Origin: Nitrosarchaeum koreense MY1 | GTDB taxonomy: Archaea; Thermoproteota; Nitrososphaeria; Nitrososphaerales; Nitrosopumilaceae | Length of the DNA: 64,000 bases | Direction: 5' to 3' | Assembly (NCBI RefSeq): GCF_000220175.1 | Contig: NZ_AFPU01000001.1 | Span: 310,001 to 374,000, forward strand | Part shown: positions 54,583 to 58,244 of the stretch, in pieces | Position numbering within the stretch: position 1 is the stretch's first letter | How the letters are laid out: each line of letters starts with the position of its first letter | Position numbers and translations under genes: made by a program | The notes under the pieces: generated by a model | Seen by the model: the letters and a program-made list of their open reading frames with translations, nothing else | Told to the model about the DNA's origin: nothing | Database searches by the model: none

Positions 54583-55569
54583 ATGTATGAACTTGCTATC
54601 GGTGCCATAATAGTAGCCCTGACTTTTGATTTTATCAATGGTTTTCATGATGCAGCAAATTCTATTGCAACAGTTGTTGGAACTAGAGTACTAAAACCTC
54701 TTCATGCTGTAACTCTTGCAGCAATTGCTAACTTTGTTGGACCATTTCTTTTTGGAGTAGCAGTTGCAACTACAATTGGAAAAGGAATCATTGATCCTGA
54801 TTTTGTCACAATTCATATTGTGATGGCAGCACTGTTTGGTGCAATTGTATGGAATTTAATTACTTGGTGGTTGGGACTTCCTTCTTCAAGTAGTCATGCA
54901 CTTGTTGGTGGTATTATTGGTGCAGGTCTTGCAGGTGCAGGATCTCACGCAATAATTTTTAGTGGATTAGAAAAAGTAGTTACAGGAATCCTTGTTTCTC
55001 CTGTAGTTGGATTGATTGGTGCGTTTTTACTTGCATCATTAATTGTCAGAGCATTTGCAAACAAAAACCCCGCTAATGTGAATTCTGCTTTTGGTAAATT
55101 GCAACTAGTGTCTGCAACTTATTTTTCACTTACTCATGGTGCAAATGATGGCCAAAAAACTATGGGAATAATTGTTTTAATTTTGTTGACTGAAGGAATT
55201 CTGACAACTTTTGAAGTGCCTTTCTGGGTGATATTGATTGCAGCAGTAGCAATTAGTCTTGGCACATTTTTTGGCGGATGGAGAATTGTAAAAACAATGG
55301 GGGCAAGAATAACACAGCTAAAGCCATACCAAGGATTTGCAGCTGAAACCAGTGGAGCTACCATCTTAGCTATTTTGGCTCATATTGGAATTCCTGCCAG
55401 TACAACTCATGCAATTTCTGGCTCAATCATGGGTGCAGGTGCAGTTAGACGTCTTTCTGCAGTTAGATGGGGAATAGGTAAAAGAATAGTGTGGGCTTGG
55501 ATTATTACAATTCCTGCAAGTGCTGTAATTGCATATGCTATCATGCTTCTATTCAATTTTTTTATGTAA
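54583..55569 (+). CDS. pit: Low-affinity inorganic phosphate transporter PiT
   Basis: A 328-residue membrane protein with about ten helices and two inverted PHO4 repeats: DFINGFHDAANSIATVVGTR and SLTHGANDGQKTMGIIVL. GLPSSSSHALVGGIIGAG and GIPASTTHAISGSIMGAG are the matching second halves. It moves phosphate with H+ or Na+. Arsenate would also enter by this route. Confidence 0.96.
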   Translation: MYELAIGAIIVALTFDFINGFHDAANSIATVVGTRVLKPLHAVTLAAIANFVGPFLFGVAVATTIGKGIIDPDFVTIHIVMAALFGAIVWNLITWWLGLPSSSSHALVGGIIGAGLAGAGSHAIIFSGLEKVVTGILVSPVVGLIGAFLLASLIVRAFANKNPANVNSAFGKLQLVSATYFSLTHGANDGQKTMGIIVLILLTEGILTTFEVPFWVILIAAVAISLGTFFGGWRIVKTMGARITQLKPYQGFAAETSGATILAILAHIGIPASTTHAISGSIMGAGAVRRLSAVRWGIGKRIVWAWIITIPASAVIAYAIMLLFNFFM

Positions 55570-55670: not shown

Positions 55671-55889
55671 ATGTTAATTATTTTACTAAATCATATTTTT
55701 TTATTTTTTTACATGTTATTTGTAAATTATATAGAATACTCTTTTAGATCATATATTGATAAACTAATCGTGCATAAAATTAAATGCAAAAAGTGTGGAA
55801 GTATGGAAACCGAAATTCTACGAAGAGGAAAATTTTCTAAGGATGTAATATTTTGCCCATCTTGTGATGATATTTGTAATAGGATTTAA
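55671..55889 (+). CDS. Small membrane-anchored zinc ribbon (putative)
   Basis: A 72-residue frame with a hydrophobic N-terminus (about 1-22) and a C-terminal zinc ribbon (IKCKKCGSMETEILRRG, then CPSCDDIC). A TTTTTCTAAAC box lies 26 bases before the ATG at 55671. A GTG at 55770 would give a soluble 39-residue ribbon alone. Two TATATAGAA-like sites surround or fall within it. Function unknown. Confidence 0.5.
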   Translation: MLIILLNHIFLFFYMLFVNYIEYSFRSYIDKLIVHKIKCKKCGSMETEILRRGKFSKDVIFCPSCDDICNRI

Positions 55890-55966: not shown

Positions 55967-56341
55967 TTACTTTGACCATTTTTTCATCCAATTAAGGAGA
56001 TCAGTAATTGATTCAATTAGTTCTTGTCCCTTTTGCGTTAGTCTGTATTCTACTCGTGGAGGTACTTCCGCAAATGTCTCTCTAGTCAGAATCCCCTCAG
56101 AAACAAGTTCAGATAATCTTGTGGATAATGTCTTACTGCTAATTCCTTTAAGGGATTTTTTGAACTGTTTGTGTCTTACTGGTTCAGTTGTACAGCATAG
56201 AGGAAATAGAATTTCAAGTGTTGCTCTCTTTGTTATCAAATCTCGTATGGTAGAAGTTTCTTTTAGTAATTTTGATACATCATAACCATCAAATTCACAT
56301 TTGTTTGCAATTACAGGTAGCTTTTTTCTATTAGTTTCCAT
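55967..56341 (-). CDS. HxlR-type winged-helix transcriptional regulator of the arsenic cluster
   Basis: A 124-residue winged-helix protein: LEILFPLCCTTEPVRHKQFKKSLKGISSKTLSTRLSELVSEGIL, then RVEYRLTQKGQELIESI for the wing, typical of the HxlR family. It has Cys15, and Cys48-Cys49 at the end of a helix, which might sense As(III), as Cys residues do in ArsR proteins; this is inference. It is divergent from arsM, and a palindromic site lies between. Confidence 0.88.
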   Translation of the reverse strand: METNRKKLPVIANKCEFDGYDVSKLLKETSTIRDLITKRATLEILFPLCCTTEPVRHKQFKKSLKGISSKTLSTRLSELVSEGILTRETFAEVPPRVEYRLTQKGQELIESITDLLNWMKKWSK

Positions 56342-56381
56342 GTTTACACTAACTTCATTAGTTTCTACTTGACAACTTTAA

Positions 56382-56400
56382 TAGTTTACCTAGTAAACTA
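56382..56400. promoter_or_regulatory. 19-bp palindromic operator upstream of arsM
   Basis: TAGTTTAC (56382-56389) and GTAAACTA (56393-56400) are perfect 8-base arms around CTA. The site ends 4 bases before the arsM ATG and lies just after a TTTAAT box (about 56376), so a bound repressor would block start of transcription. A further GTTTAC half-site (56342-56347) adjoins the regulator's own start codon, suggesting autoregulation. Confidence 0.7.
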
Positions 56401-56404
56401 TCAT

Positions 56405-57163
56405 ATGGAACAATCAATCAAAGAAGAGATCAAAAAAAGATATTCAAAGATAGCAGTTACTGGAAATACAAATTGTTGTTGTATGCCTGGGGAGTGTAAA
56501 TCAGGAGATTCTCCAATTGATGCAACAAAATTAATTGGTTATGCACAAAAAGAACTTGAATCAATCCCACAAGAAGCAATTTTGGGAGTTGGGTGTGGAG
56601 CCCCGTTAAATTACCTTGAACTTAAAGAAGGAGAGATTGTTGTTGATTTGGGTTCAGGTGCAGGAATCGACATATTTTTAGCTGCAAAAAAAGTATCAAA
56701 TTCAGGCAAAGCCATTGGAATTGATATGACAGATCAGATGTTGGAAAAAGCTAGAGAAAATGCTCTAAATGGAAATTATTCTAATGTGGAATTTAGAAAA
56801 GGAGACATTGAAGAAAACATCCCACTAAACAATAACTCTGTGGATGCTGTGATTAGCAATTGTGTTATCAATCTAACGACAAACAAAACAAATGCGTTCA
56901 AGGAAGTTTTTAGAATTTTAAAAAATGAAGGGAGAATGGTAATATCTGATCTAATAACTGATGTAGAGATATCACCAAATCAGATAAACTCTGAACAGTG
57001 GTGTGAATGTATTGATGGTGCCTTGACTAAAGAAAATTATATCTCATCAATGAAACAAGCAGGTTTTGAAAAGATTGAGATCTTGGAAGAAAGAGTATAC
57101 ATGGAAAGAGAAAAAGTAAATGGAAGAAGAATTACAAGTCTAGTGATAAAGGCGATTAAGTAA
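56405..57163 (+). CDS. arsM: Arsenite S-adenosylmethionine methyltransferase ArsM
   Basis: A 252-residue SAM-dependent enzyme that methylates As(III). Three conserved Cys match the ArsM set: GVGCGAP (Cys64), ISNCVINL (Cys153) and WCECIDGAL (Cys202, with Cys200 nearby). The SAM motif is VVDLGSGAGIDIFLAA. An N-terminal CCC cluster (residues 24-26) is also present. The ATG at 56405 is chosen since it follows the operator; the frame extends upstream to 56369, but that would cross the operator. Confidence 0.95.
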   Translation: MEQSIKEEIKKRYSKIAVTGNTNCCCMPGECKSGDSPIDATKLIGYAQKELESIPQEAILGVGCGAPLNYLELKEGEIVVDLGSGAGIDIFLAAKKVSNSGKAIGIDMTDQMLEKARENALNGNYSNVEFRKGDIEENIPLNNNSVDAVISNCVINLTTNKTNAFKEVFRILKNEGRMVISDLITDVEISPNQINSEQWCECIDGALTKENYISSMKQAGFEKIEILEERVYMEREKVNGRRITSLVIKAIK

Positions 57164-57171
57164 TTTAAAAC

Positions 57172-57573
57172 ATGACAAAAAAAATTCTTTTTGTATGTGT
57201 TGAAAATGCTGGAAGAAGCCAAATGGCTGAAGCATTTTTTAAAAAATTCATGCCAAAAGGCTTTGAAGTTATTAGTGCAGGAACAAAGCCTAGTGATAAA
57301 GTAAATCCCATTGTTTTACAAGCAATGAATGAAATTGGTATTGATATGAAAAATCAAACTCCAAAAACTATCTCACAACAGATAATATCTGAATCTGAAA
57401 AAGCTGTAAACATGGGATGTATAGACCAAGAGTCATGTCCTGCGCTATTTCTAAAAGATGTTCTTGATTGGCAAATCCCTGATCCTAAAGGAAAACCAAT
57501 TGAACAAGTAAGAGAAATTCGTGATCAGATTAAATCAAAGGTGATGGATTTGATCAAATCATTTGAGGAATAG
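57172..57573 (+). CDS. arsC: Thioredoxin-coupled arsenate reductase ArsC
   Basis: A 133-residue low-molecular-weight phosphatase-like arsenate reductase. The nucleophile Cys9 is in the P-loop CVENAGRS; resolving Cys83 and Cys89 (MGCIDQESCP) match the three-Cys cascade of the pI258-type enzyme; the general acid Asp lies in IPDPKG. It reduces As(V) to As(III), the substrate for ArsM and the aquaporin. It begins 8 bases after arsM. Confidence 0.95.
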   Translation: MTKKILFVCVENAGRSQMAEAFFKKFMPKGFEVISAGTKPSDKVNPIVLQAMNEIGIDMKNQTPKTISQQIISESEKAVNMGCIDQESCPALFLKDVLDWQIPDPKGKPIEQVREIRDQIKSKVMDLIKSFEE

Positions 57574-57578
57574 AACTA

Positions 57579-58244
57579 ATGACTTATTCTAACTTGCAAA
57601 TTTTCATCGTAGAATTAATTGGTACTTTTATTCTTGTTGTATTTGCAACTGGTTCTATTGTGTATGATGTGCAAACTGGTGGAACACTTGGAATTGCTTT
57701 TGCAGCCGTTGCACCATTTATCGCATTAATTATTGGGATTTACTGTTTTGGTAAAGTGTCACTAGCTCATTTTAATCCGGCAGTGACTATTGGTTTTTAC
57801 ATCACTGGACATATCTCTAAAATTCAGATAGTAATTTATTTTACAGCTGAGATCATTGGCGCATTACTTGGTTCATTGTTTGTTTTGACCTTTATTGGAA
57901 CAGAAGCAAATCTTGGTGCAAACGCACCTAATCCTGATTTCTCAATGTCTCTGGTATTTCCCGTTGAGGTTTTAGCATCTGCTTTACTTATGACTGTAAT
58001 CTTTACTGTAGTTTACACAAAAGGATTACGAGGATTCGGAGGAATAGTAATTGGTGGGATTGTCGGGCTGGATATCTTTTTTTTGGCTTTTATCTCAGGC
58101 GCGTCTATGAATCCTGCAAGGGCATTGGCACCTGCATTGTTTTCTGGAGTGTTTGAAAATTTATGGTTATATTGGACTGCTCCATATGTCGGAACTGTAA
58201 TTACTGCATTTTTATTTAGAAACAAATTTCGTAACCAAAAATAG
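57579..58244 (+). CDS. Aquaporin/MIP channel, likely arsenite exit channel
   Basis: A 221-residue channel with six helices and the two NPA half-helices HFNPAVT and MNPARA. The position six bases after arsC in a cluster that has no ArsB or Acr3 pump suggests arsenite leaves through this channel, as described for AqpS of Sinorhizobium. The MIP family is certain; the arsenite role is inference from context. Confidence 0.92.
   Translation: MTYSNLQIFIVELIGTFILVVFATGSIVYDVQTGGTLGIAFAAVAPFIALIIGIYCFGKVSLAHFNPAVTIGFYITGHISKIQIVIYFTAEIIGALLGSLFVLTFIGTEANLGANAPNPDFSMSLVFPVEVLASALLMTVIFTVVYTKGLRGFGGIVIGGIVGLDIFFLAFISGASMNPARALAPALFSGVFENLWLYWTAPYVGTVITAFLFRNKFRNQK

Follow-up and report, generated by a model that had tools for sequence, protein, structure and literature searches.

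A probable pump-free arsenic operon of the reductase-plus-channel kind, with an HxlR-family regulator, in Nitrosarchaeum koreense

The arsenic cluster described here is probably an ars operon of the reductase-plus-channel kind: ArsC would produce As(OH)3 that leaves the cell through a MIP channel, ArsM would be an accessory and an HxlR-family protein would take the place of ArsR. It lies in a window of 64,000 nucleotides, by which we mean the whole stretch of DNA that was analysed, and all coordinates refer to this window. The reading draws on sequence comparison, namely the gene content and order, the lack of pumps, the coupling of arsC to the channel gene, the mutual exclusion of HxlR and ArsR, and the conserved cysteines and operator. 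An AqpS-like exit for arsenite had been proposed from the window alone and, for an arsenic cluster in a genome without ArsB, Acr3 or ArsP, it still appears to be the best reading. The host is an ammonia-oxidising archaeon (AOA), and a broader proposition can be made for the AOA: that they share a family-wide, pump-free system, with ArsC feeding a channel dedicated to arsenite, and that several times an HxlR protein turned arsenite sensor through C15, C49 and C50 has replaced ArsR in it; we give this an even chance of being right.

The regulator gene (55967-56341, minus strand) encodes 124 aa and scores 70.9 bits against PF01638 (cut-off 20.8). Divergent from it, on the plus strand, are arsM (56405-57163, 252 aa; 273.8 bits against the NF008823 'arsenite methyltransferase' model, cut-off 263), arsC for a reductase of the LMW-phosphatase type (57172-57573, 133 aa; LMWPc PF01451, 76.9 bits, cut-off 23.2) and the gene of a MIP channel, or aquaporin, the proposed arsenite exit (57579-58244, 221 aa; PF00230, 136.3 bits, cut-off 25). 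The last three are co-directional and separated by 8 and 5 bases. All four genes have the positions, directions and families that the original prediction gave them. Phosphate-transport genes of the pit/pst type adjoin the cluster: a Pit-type transporter (54583-55569, plus strand; PHO4, 324.3 bits) together with PhoU and DUF47 genes (Pfam). The Pit protein is about 64% identical to Pit of the close relatives G037 and G039, unlike ArsC and the upstream PhoU, which are 96-99% identical to theirs; the Pit gene of the window is possibly a local allele replacement. A 72-aa ORF at 55671-55889 has a zinc-ribbon-like C-X2-C...C-X2-C pattern and matches no Pfam or NCBIfam model, and some 350 bases in the region of this ORF are missing from the G039 locus.

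Both enzymes retain the residues that are expected of them. The three cysteines of ArsM and the three of ArsC, said to be in place, are indeed there, and the alignments show that they are also kept in relatives: ArsM C64, C153 and C202 in 69/69, 69/69 and 68/68 non-gap rows, and ArsC C9, C83 and C89 in 68/68 rows each. With a score above the cut-off of the curated family and all three cysteines, ArsM is predicted to methylate arsenite, and the solved structures nearest to it are arsenic methyltransferases. ArsC has the LMW-phosphatase fold with a CX5R loop (C9-X5-R15) as well as C83 and C89 (PF01451), and its nearest solved structures are arsenate reductases. Its scores are below the cut-offs of the NCBIfam arsenate reductase equivalogs (90.5 vs 157.6 and 81.8 vs 174.3 bits), which counts against the reading. 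The longest ArsM ORF begins at a TTG codon, 56369. We rejected this start, as what is conserved in frame ahead of the ATG is promoter and operator sequence; the ATG at 56405 is likely the start because the TTG extension overlaps these elements.

The absence of a pump was checked on the whole genome, a single contig of 1,607,695 bases that is 99.68% complete. Models of SBF, Acr3, ArsB and ArsP gave 0 matches in it; as positive controls, the same models matched in 12, 7, 6 and 8 of 14 genomes, respectively. Pumps of the SBF/Acr3, ArsB and ArsP families are absent from this genome, because the models are empty here yet match in the control genomes. What had been said of ArsB and Acr3 for the cluster thus holds genome-wide, and an exporter of some other family may exist. 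Acr3 was found in one of the 250 family genomes (G047), where it comes after HxlR-arsM-arsC, the position that is held by the channel elsewhere; two channel genes and two ArsR genes are present in this genome as well. The G047 Acr3 (L031/L076, 2703-3771, contig C113) spans two overlapping frames, and is therefore frameshifted or mis-assembled.

To judge from its distribution, the core unit of the system is the arsC-aqp pair and ArsM is a variable extra. A channel ortholog is present in 207 of the 250 family genomes, and in 119 of the 131 of good quality. Channel loci were fetched from two families, f1 and f3, which the data suggest are the Nitrosopumilaceae and the Nitrososphaeraceae. In these, the channel is immediately preceded by arsC at 45 of 49 loci in f1 and at 24 of 24 in f3. 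The gaps in f1 range from -23 to +8 (longest ORF), and two of the other four f1 loci contain partial arsC matches. Outside the HxlR-channel clusters we hand-chose 20 channel loci from the channel matches, favouring long contigs, and in 18 of these the gene next upstream of the channel is arsC or a part of it; at L251 and L253 the channel occurs without arsC. The channel occurs in many more genomes than either arsM or HxlR, which, together with its arsC-less loci, counts against the proposed reading, and it may therefore have other substrates.

The methyltransferase is found in 48 of the 250 genomes (E<=1e-30). Loci were read around 46 of these, and the window itself and G213 (by coordinates) complete the 48. 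HxlR is adjacent to arsM in 34; the remaining 14 comprise ten close homologs that stand alone, G200, where the HxlR locus is on a different contig from arsM, and three distant homologs (46% identical). Among 40 further HxlR loci (8 in f1 and 32 in f3), ten are HxlR|arsC-aqp without arsM. A decayed arsM remnant is seen at the expected place in L160, where HxlR, operator, arsC and channel remain, and the last 20 arsM codons are left in L161. The order Pit-arsC-aqp without HxlR-arsM occurs in G037, G036 and G025. In G037 (L248), where Pit, arsC, aqp and hemL follow each other as in the window, the alignment with the window extends as far as 55537 (84%) and resumes from 57155 (94%) with only 14 bases between. 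HxlR-arsM is therefore a separate unit of some 1.6 kb, by this alignment a clean insertion or loss with respect to G037.

Methylation and the aquaporin had been presented as the defining pair of the cluster, a view that the distribution overturns. We rejected ArsM as the channel's defining partner because both the HxlR|arsC-aqp and the ArsR|arsC-aqp loci lack arsM, and we likewise rejected a channel limited to the HxlR/arsM cluster, given its ortholog count and the arsC beside it in most fetched loci. An unusual combination in one archaeon is thus replaced by a channel-reductase pair that is a family-wide module. Some Nitrososphaeraceae HxlR clusters have tandem arsM copies (L188, L190, L196). 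At two arsM-only loci of genus g14 (L084, L086), the start of the gene just upstream reads as a rhodanese-type sulfurtransferase (sequence reading).

The regulator that stands opposite the pair is of two kinds. An ArsR/SmtB gene is divergent from arsC-aqp in 12 of the 20 non-HxlR channel loci; two examples that were scanned score 60.0 and 56.9 bits against HTH_5 (cut-off 22), and 83.3 and 78.0 bits against NF033788 (cut-off 55). This ArsR is present in 127 of the 250 genomes, and its ortholog was not found in the window's genome. The window's regulator exceeds the PF01638 cut-off and has fold neighbours of the HxlR family; it matches neither HTH_5 nor a metalloregulator model at E<=0.001, and is therefore not assigned to ArsR/SmtB. 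When used as a query over the class, it has a match in 159 of 400 genomes; among the matches listed, the scores form two groups, one from about 80 bits upwards that is confined to f1 and f3, and one at about 71 bits or below that includes other families too.

Do the two regulators exclude each other? HxlR stands next to the channel in 31 of the 207 channel genomes, all of which lack this ArsR, as against 126 of the 176 others that have it (Fisher p ~3e-15, a statistic that ignores kinship). The 176 include G197, with a decayed HxlR copy by the channel, and G213, where HxlR, arsM and channel are together by coordinates. Both types occur within the same genera, with HxlR-type and ArsR-bearing genomes numbering 1/3 in g5, 4/74 in g14, 19/9 in g15 and 5/7 in g16. 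In the window's own genus (g1) ArsR is absent throughout: two channel genomes are HxlR-type, and the 13 others lack HxlR next to the channel as well, which counts against the reading. Eight genomes have HxlR-arsM-arsC with no channel in the locus; ArsR is present in seven (the exception is G033), about 0.75 kb from a channel and on the same contig by coordinates, the locus itself having been read in G089, G137, G153 and G173. In the channel tree, in which several forks are weak, HxlR-type rows (the window with G039; G118; G109) are nested between rows that are ArsR-type or unregulated, which is the pattern that an exchange of regulators around an inherited arsC-aqp pair would give. HxlR and ArsR thus appear to be unrelated, interchangeable regulators of a shared reductase-channel pair. 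The channels of G214, G014 and G217 (L089, L090, L106) form a long separate branch, despite the same HxlR-arsM-arsC-aqp order. A gene for an SbtA-type bicarbonate transporter (Sbt_1) and a P-II-like gene are located beside ArsR|arsC-aqp in many relatives (L255, 5428-6806, and similar).

The HxlR protein is a candidate As(III)-sensing repressor that would act through C15, C49 and C50. These are invariant in 74/74 ortholog rows (one a duplicate, L048 and L199 being one contig). At the aligned positions a cysteine is found in 3, 0 and 3, respectively, of 20 paralogs, which were hand-picked from lower-scoring class matches rather than drawn at random. In the AF2 model (pLDDT 81.7) C49 is predicted to end the helix 41-49, with C50 just after it, and C15 to lie in a less certain N-terminal stretch.

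A candidate operator, the perfect 17-base palindrome AGTTTACCTAGTAAACT (56383-56399, assigned to no strand), sits between a TATA-like element, ACTTTAATAG, and the arsM ATG, and is the sole perfect copy in the genome. The TATA-like element (56374-56384, limits approximate, plus strand) was identified by eye in aligned upstream regions, and in relatives, by the same means, ACTTTAATAG or ACTTAAATRG precedes the operator. The pattern GTTTACNNNGTAAAC with at most two mismatches is found in 70 of the 74 promoter regions of HxlR, the duplicate row included, and 32 of these copies are perfect; shuffled regions contain it in 27 of 1480 cases, and it is perfect in none of the 12 ArsR promoter regions. 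Nor was the palindrome seen by eye in ten arsM-only promoters, and at the G200 arsM locus, which is without HxlR, the flanking promoter sequence is kept and the palindrome lost. Perfect copies occur in 43 of the 250 genomes, and since some of these lie away from HxlR loci the palindrome alone is not diagnostic. A wider HxlR regulon in the genome was considered and rejected: there is one perfect copy, and at one mismatch 3 sites, vs 7 for a reversed-pattern control.

The channel has the two NPA motifs of a MIP (N66-P67-A68 and N178-P179-A180), and the alignment places its selectivity filter at P46, I166, A175 and R181, in a numbering of filter positions that we take from E. coli AqpZ. In HxlR-cluster channels P46 is kept in 54/57 and I166 in 51/55 non-gap rows, and P and I are found at 20/20 of the non-HxlR channel loci. 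In 18/18 of the remaining MIPs from these genomes, both positions are His. A structure model of the channel (mean pLDDT 59.9) was left out of the argument. By sequence, the best solved relatives of the channel are plant NIP2-1/Lsi1 and archaeal AqpM; NIP2-1 is the best PDB match, and the channel tree contains no NIP.

How might these parts work together? Arsenate would enter through phosphate transporters, Pit being a likely one, and be reduced to arsenite by ArsC. Near neutral pH arsenite is uncharged As(OH)3, which would leave passively through the MIP channel, down its own gradient. A pump would not be needed because the arsenic outside is mostly arsenate. ArsM would methylate part of the arsenite, a second and dispensable outlet. 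HxlR would bind the palindrome between the TATA box and the arsM start and so block initiation, until As(III) or methyl-As(III) at C15/C49/C50 releases it.

Other explanations were weighed against this reading. The channel could be a general small-solute or osmotic channel (for water, glycerol, ammonia or boric acid) that merely stands beside arsC, with arsenic leaving by methylation or through an unknown exporter. Its presence in 207 of the 250 genomes, whether or not these have arsM and HxlR, would fit this, and AOA aquaporins have been interpreted as osmotic in print (in passages of PMC4084955). We nevertheless think it unlikely, as the channel goes together with arsC at 69 of 73 loci from the two families, under arsenic-type regulators. 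Moreover each genome has a separate His-filter MIP besides the channel, which itself lacks the filter His of those MIPs. Bacterial relatives point both ways: six of ten inspected (out of 319 plasmid records that the channel search matched) are in arsenic clusters, i.e. those of Alicyclobacillus, two Priestia, Calothrix, Oscillatoria and Rubrobacter, which argues for an arsenite channel, and the four outside such clusters argue against it. Methylation could instead be the main detoxification route, with the channel releasing methylated arsenicals. The operon here begins with an intact arsM, the gene stands by itself in 10 of the 48 genomes that have it, and methylated arsenicals pass through some MIPs, according to passages of PMC4435449. 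This seems to us quite improbable, given that arsM is missing from 10 of the 40 further HxlR loci and has decayed in L160 while the rest persists, and that the ArsR-arsC-aqp loci, by their gene content, would function without it.

Better-known members of the HxlR family sense redox or electrophiles, and the window's protein could sense thiol or redox stress in the same way, its link to arsenic being indirect. Its solved neighbours include YodB, HypR, QsrR and B. subtilis HxlR; several of these sense redox state or electrophiles, which speaks for such a role and counts against an arsenic signal. All share the winged-helix fold, with cysteine-based sensing in several; the protein described here differs in its C15/C49/C50 set and in the arsenic signal proposed for it. 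These three cysteines are special to the HxlR clade of ars loci, every HxlR locus with enough sequence carries arsenic genes, and HxlR alternates with ArsR at the same place. A redox signal is thus possible, although we find it doubtful, and arsenite remains our preferred signal.

The system is a variant of a known ars operon of the reductase-plus-channel kind, and the HxlR regulator is its least expected part. It is likened by gene content, with no comparison to the AqpS sequence itself, to the AqpS-type operon of Sinorhizobium meliloti, with which, from passages in PMC9454679 and PMC4435449, it shares arsC, a MIP in place of a pump, and reduction followed by passive exit. The archaeal cluster differs in having HxlR rather than ArsR, and arsM in addition. 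Of the hallmarks of that type, arsC-MIP adjacency (a 5-base gap) and the lack of ArsB and Acr3 are seen here, and an ArsR/SmtB regulator is seen in the relatives instead. A channel can suffice by the reasoning given for AqpS in part of PMC9454679, that it moves arsenite only downhill and is useful under arsenate exposure. In one survey, as described in part of PMC4435449, 18/18 MIPs in bacterial ars operons were without another transporter. Closer still are the ArsR|arsC-aqp loci of related Nitrosopumilaceae, with the same channel, reductase, order and divergent regulator position; they differ by their ArsR/SmtB regulator, another promoter sequence and the lack of arsM. In the open-licence PMC literature we found no description of an HxlR protein, or of a Thaumarchaeota aquaporin, in connection with arsenic. 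The arsC-aqp pair offers a concrete answer to how pump-less AOA would dispose of arsenite, and gives a new reading to a channel otherwise taken as osmotic. The exchange of HxlR and ArsR suggests a possible new kind of arsenic sensor, and a test of it would need no more than a single small protein and a site of 17 bases.

Similarity to the solved channels NIP2-1/Lsi1 and AqpM is low (~90 bits) and their filter residues are different. Pommerrenig is said to have argued in 2020 that plant NIPs originate from bacterial arsenic channels. Lsi1 passes arsenite, according to a passage in PMC9510833. Among bacteria, a Rubrobacter tropicus plasmid has an arsM-arsR-arsC-arsC-aqp cluster with the same enzymes, a 34.7% identical channel and no pump in the stretch seen. 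It differs in its ArsR regulator, its bacterial host and its F-A-A-R filter, as against P-I-A-R here. The original prediction had called arsM with an aquaporin under an HxlR regulator unusual: the Rubrobacter plasmid removes this distinction from the enzymes and channel, and it stands for the HxlR regulator, where relatives have ArsR. F-A-A-R is the filter of all six plasmid channels from arsenic clusters; of the four others, three are F-H-A/S-R and that of Hymenobacter is F-A-A-R. On the Alicyclobacillus plasmid pAACI01 (L200, 4001-4621) the channel is an unannotated frame within a cluster of arsM and ArsN1.
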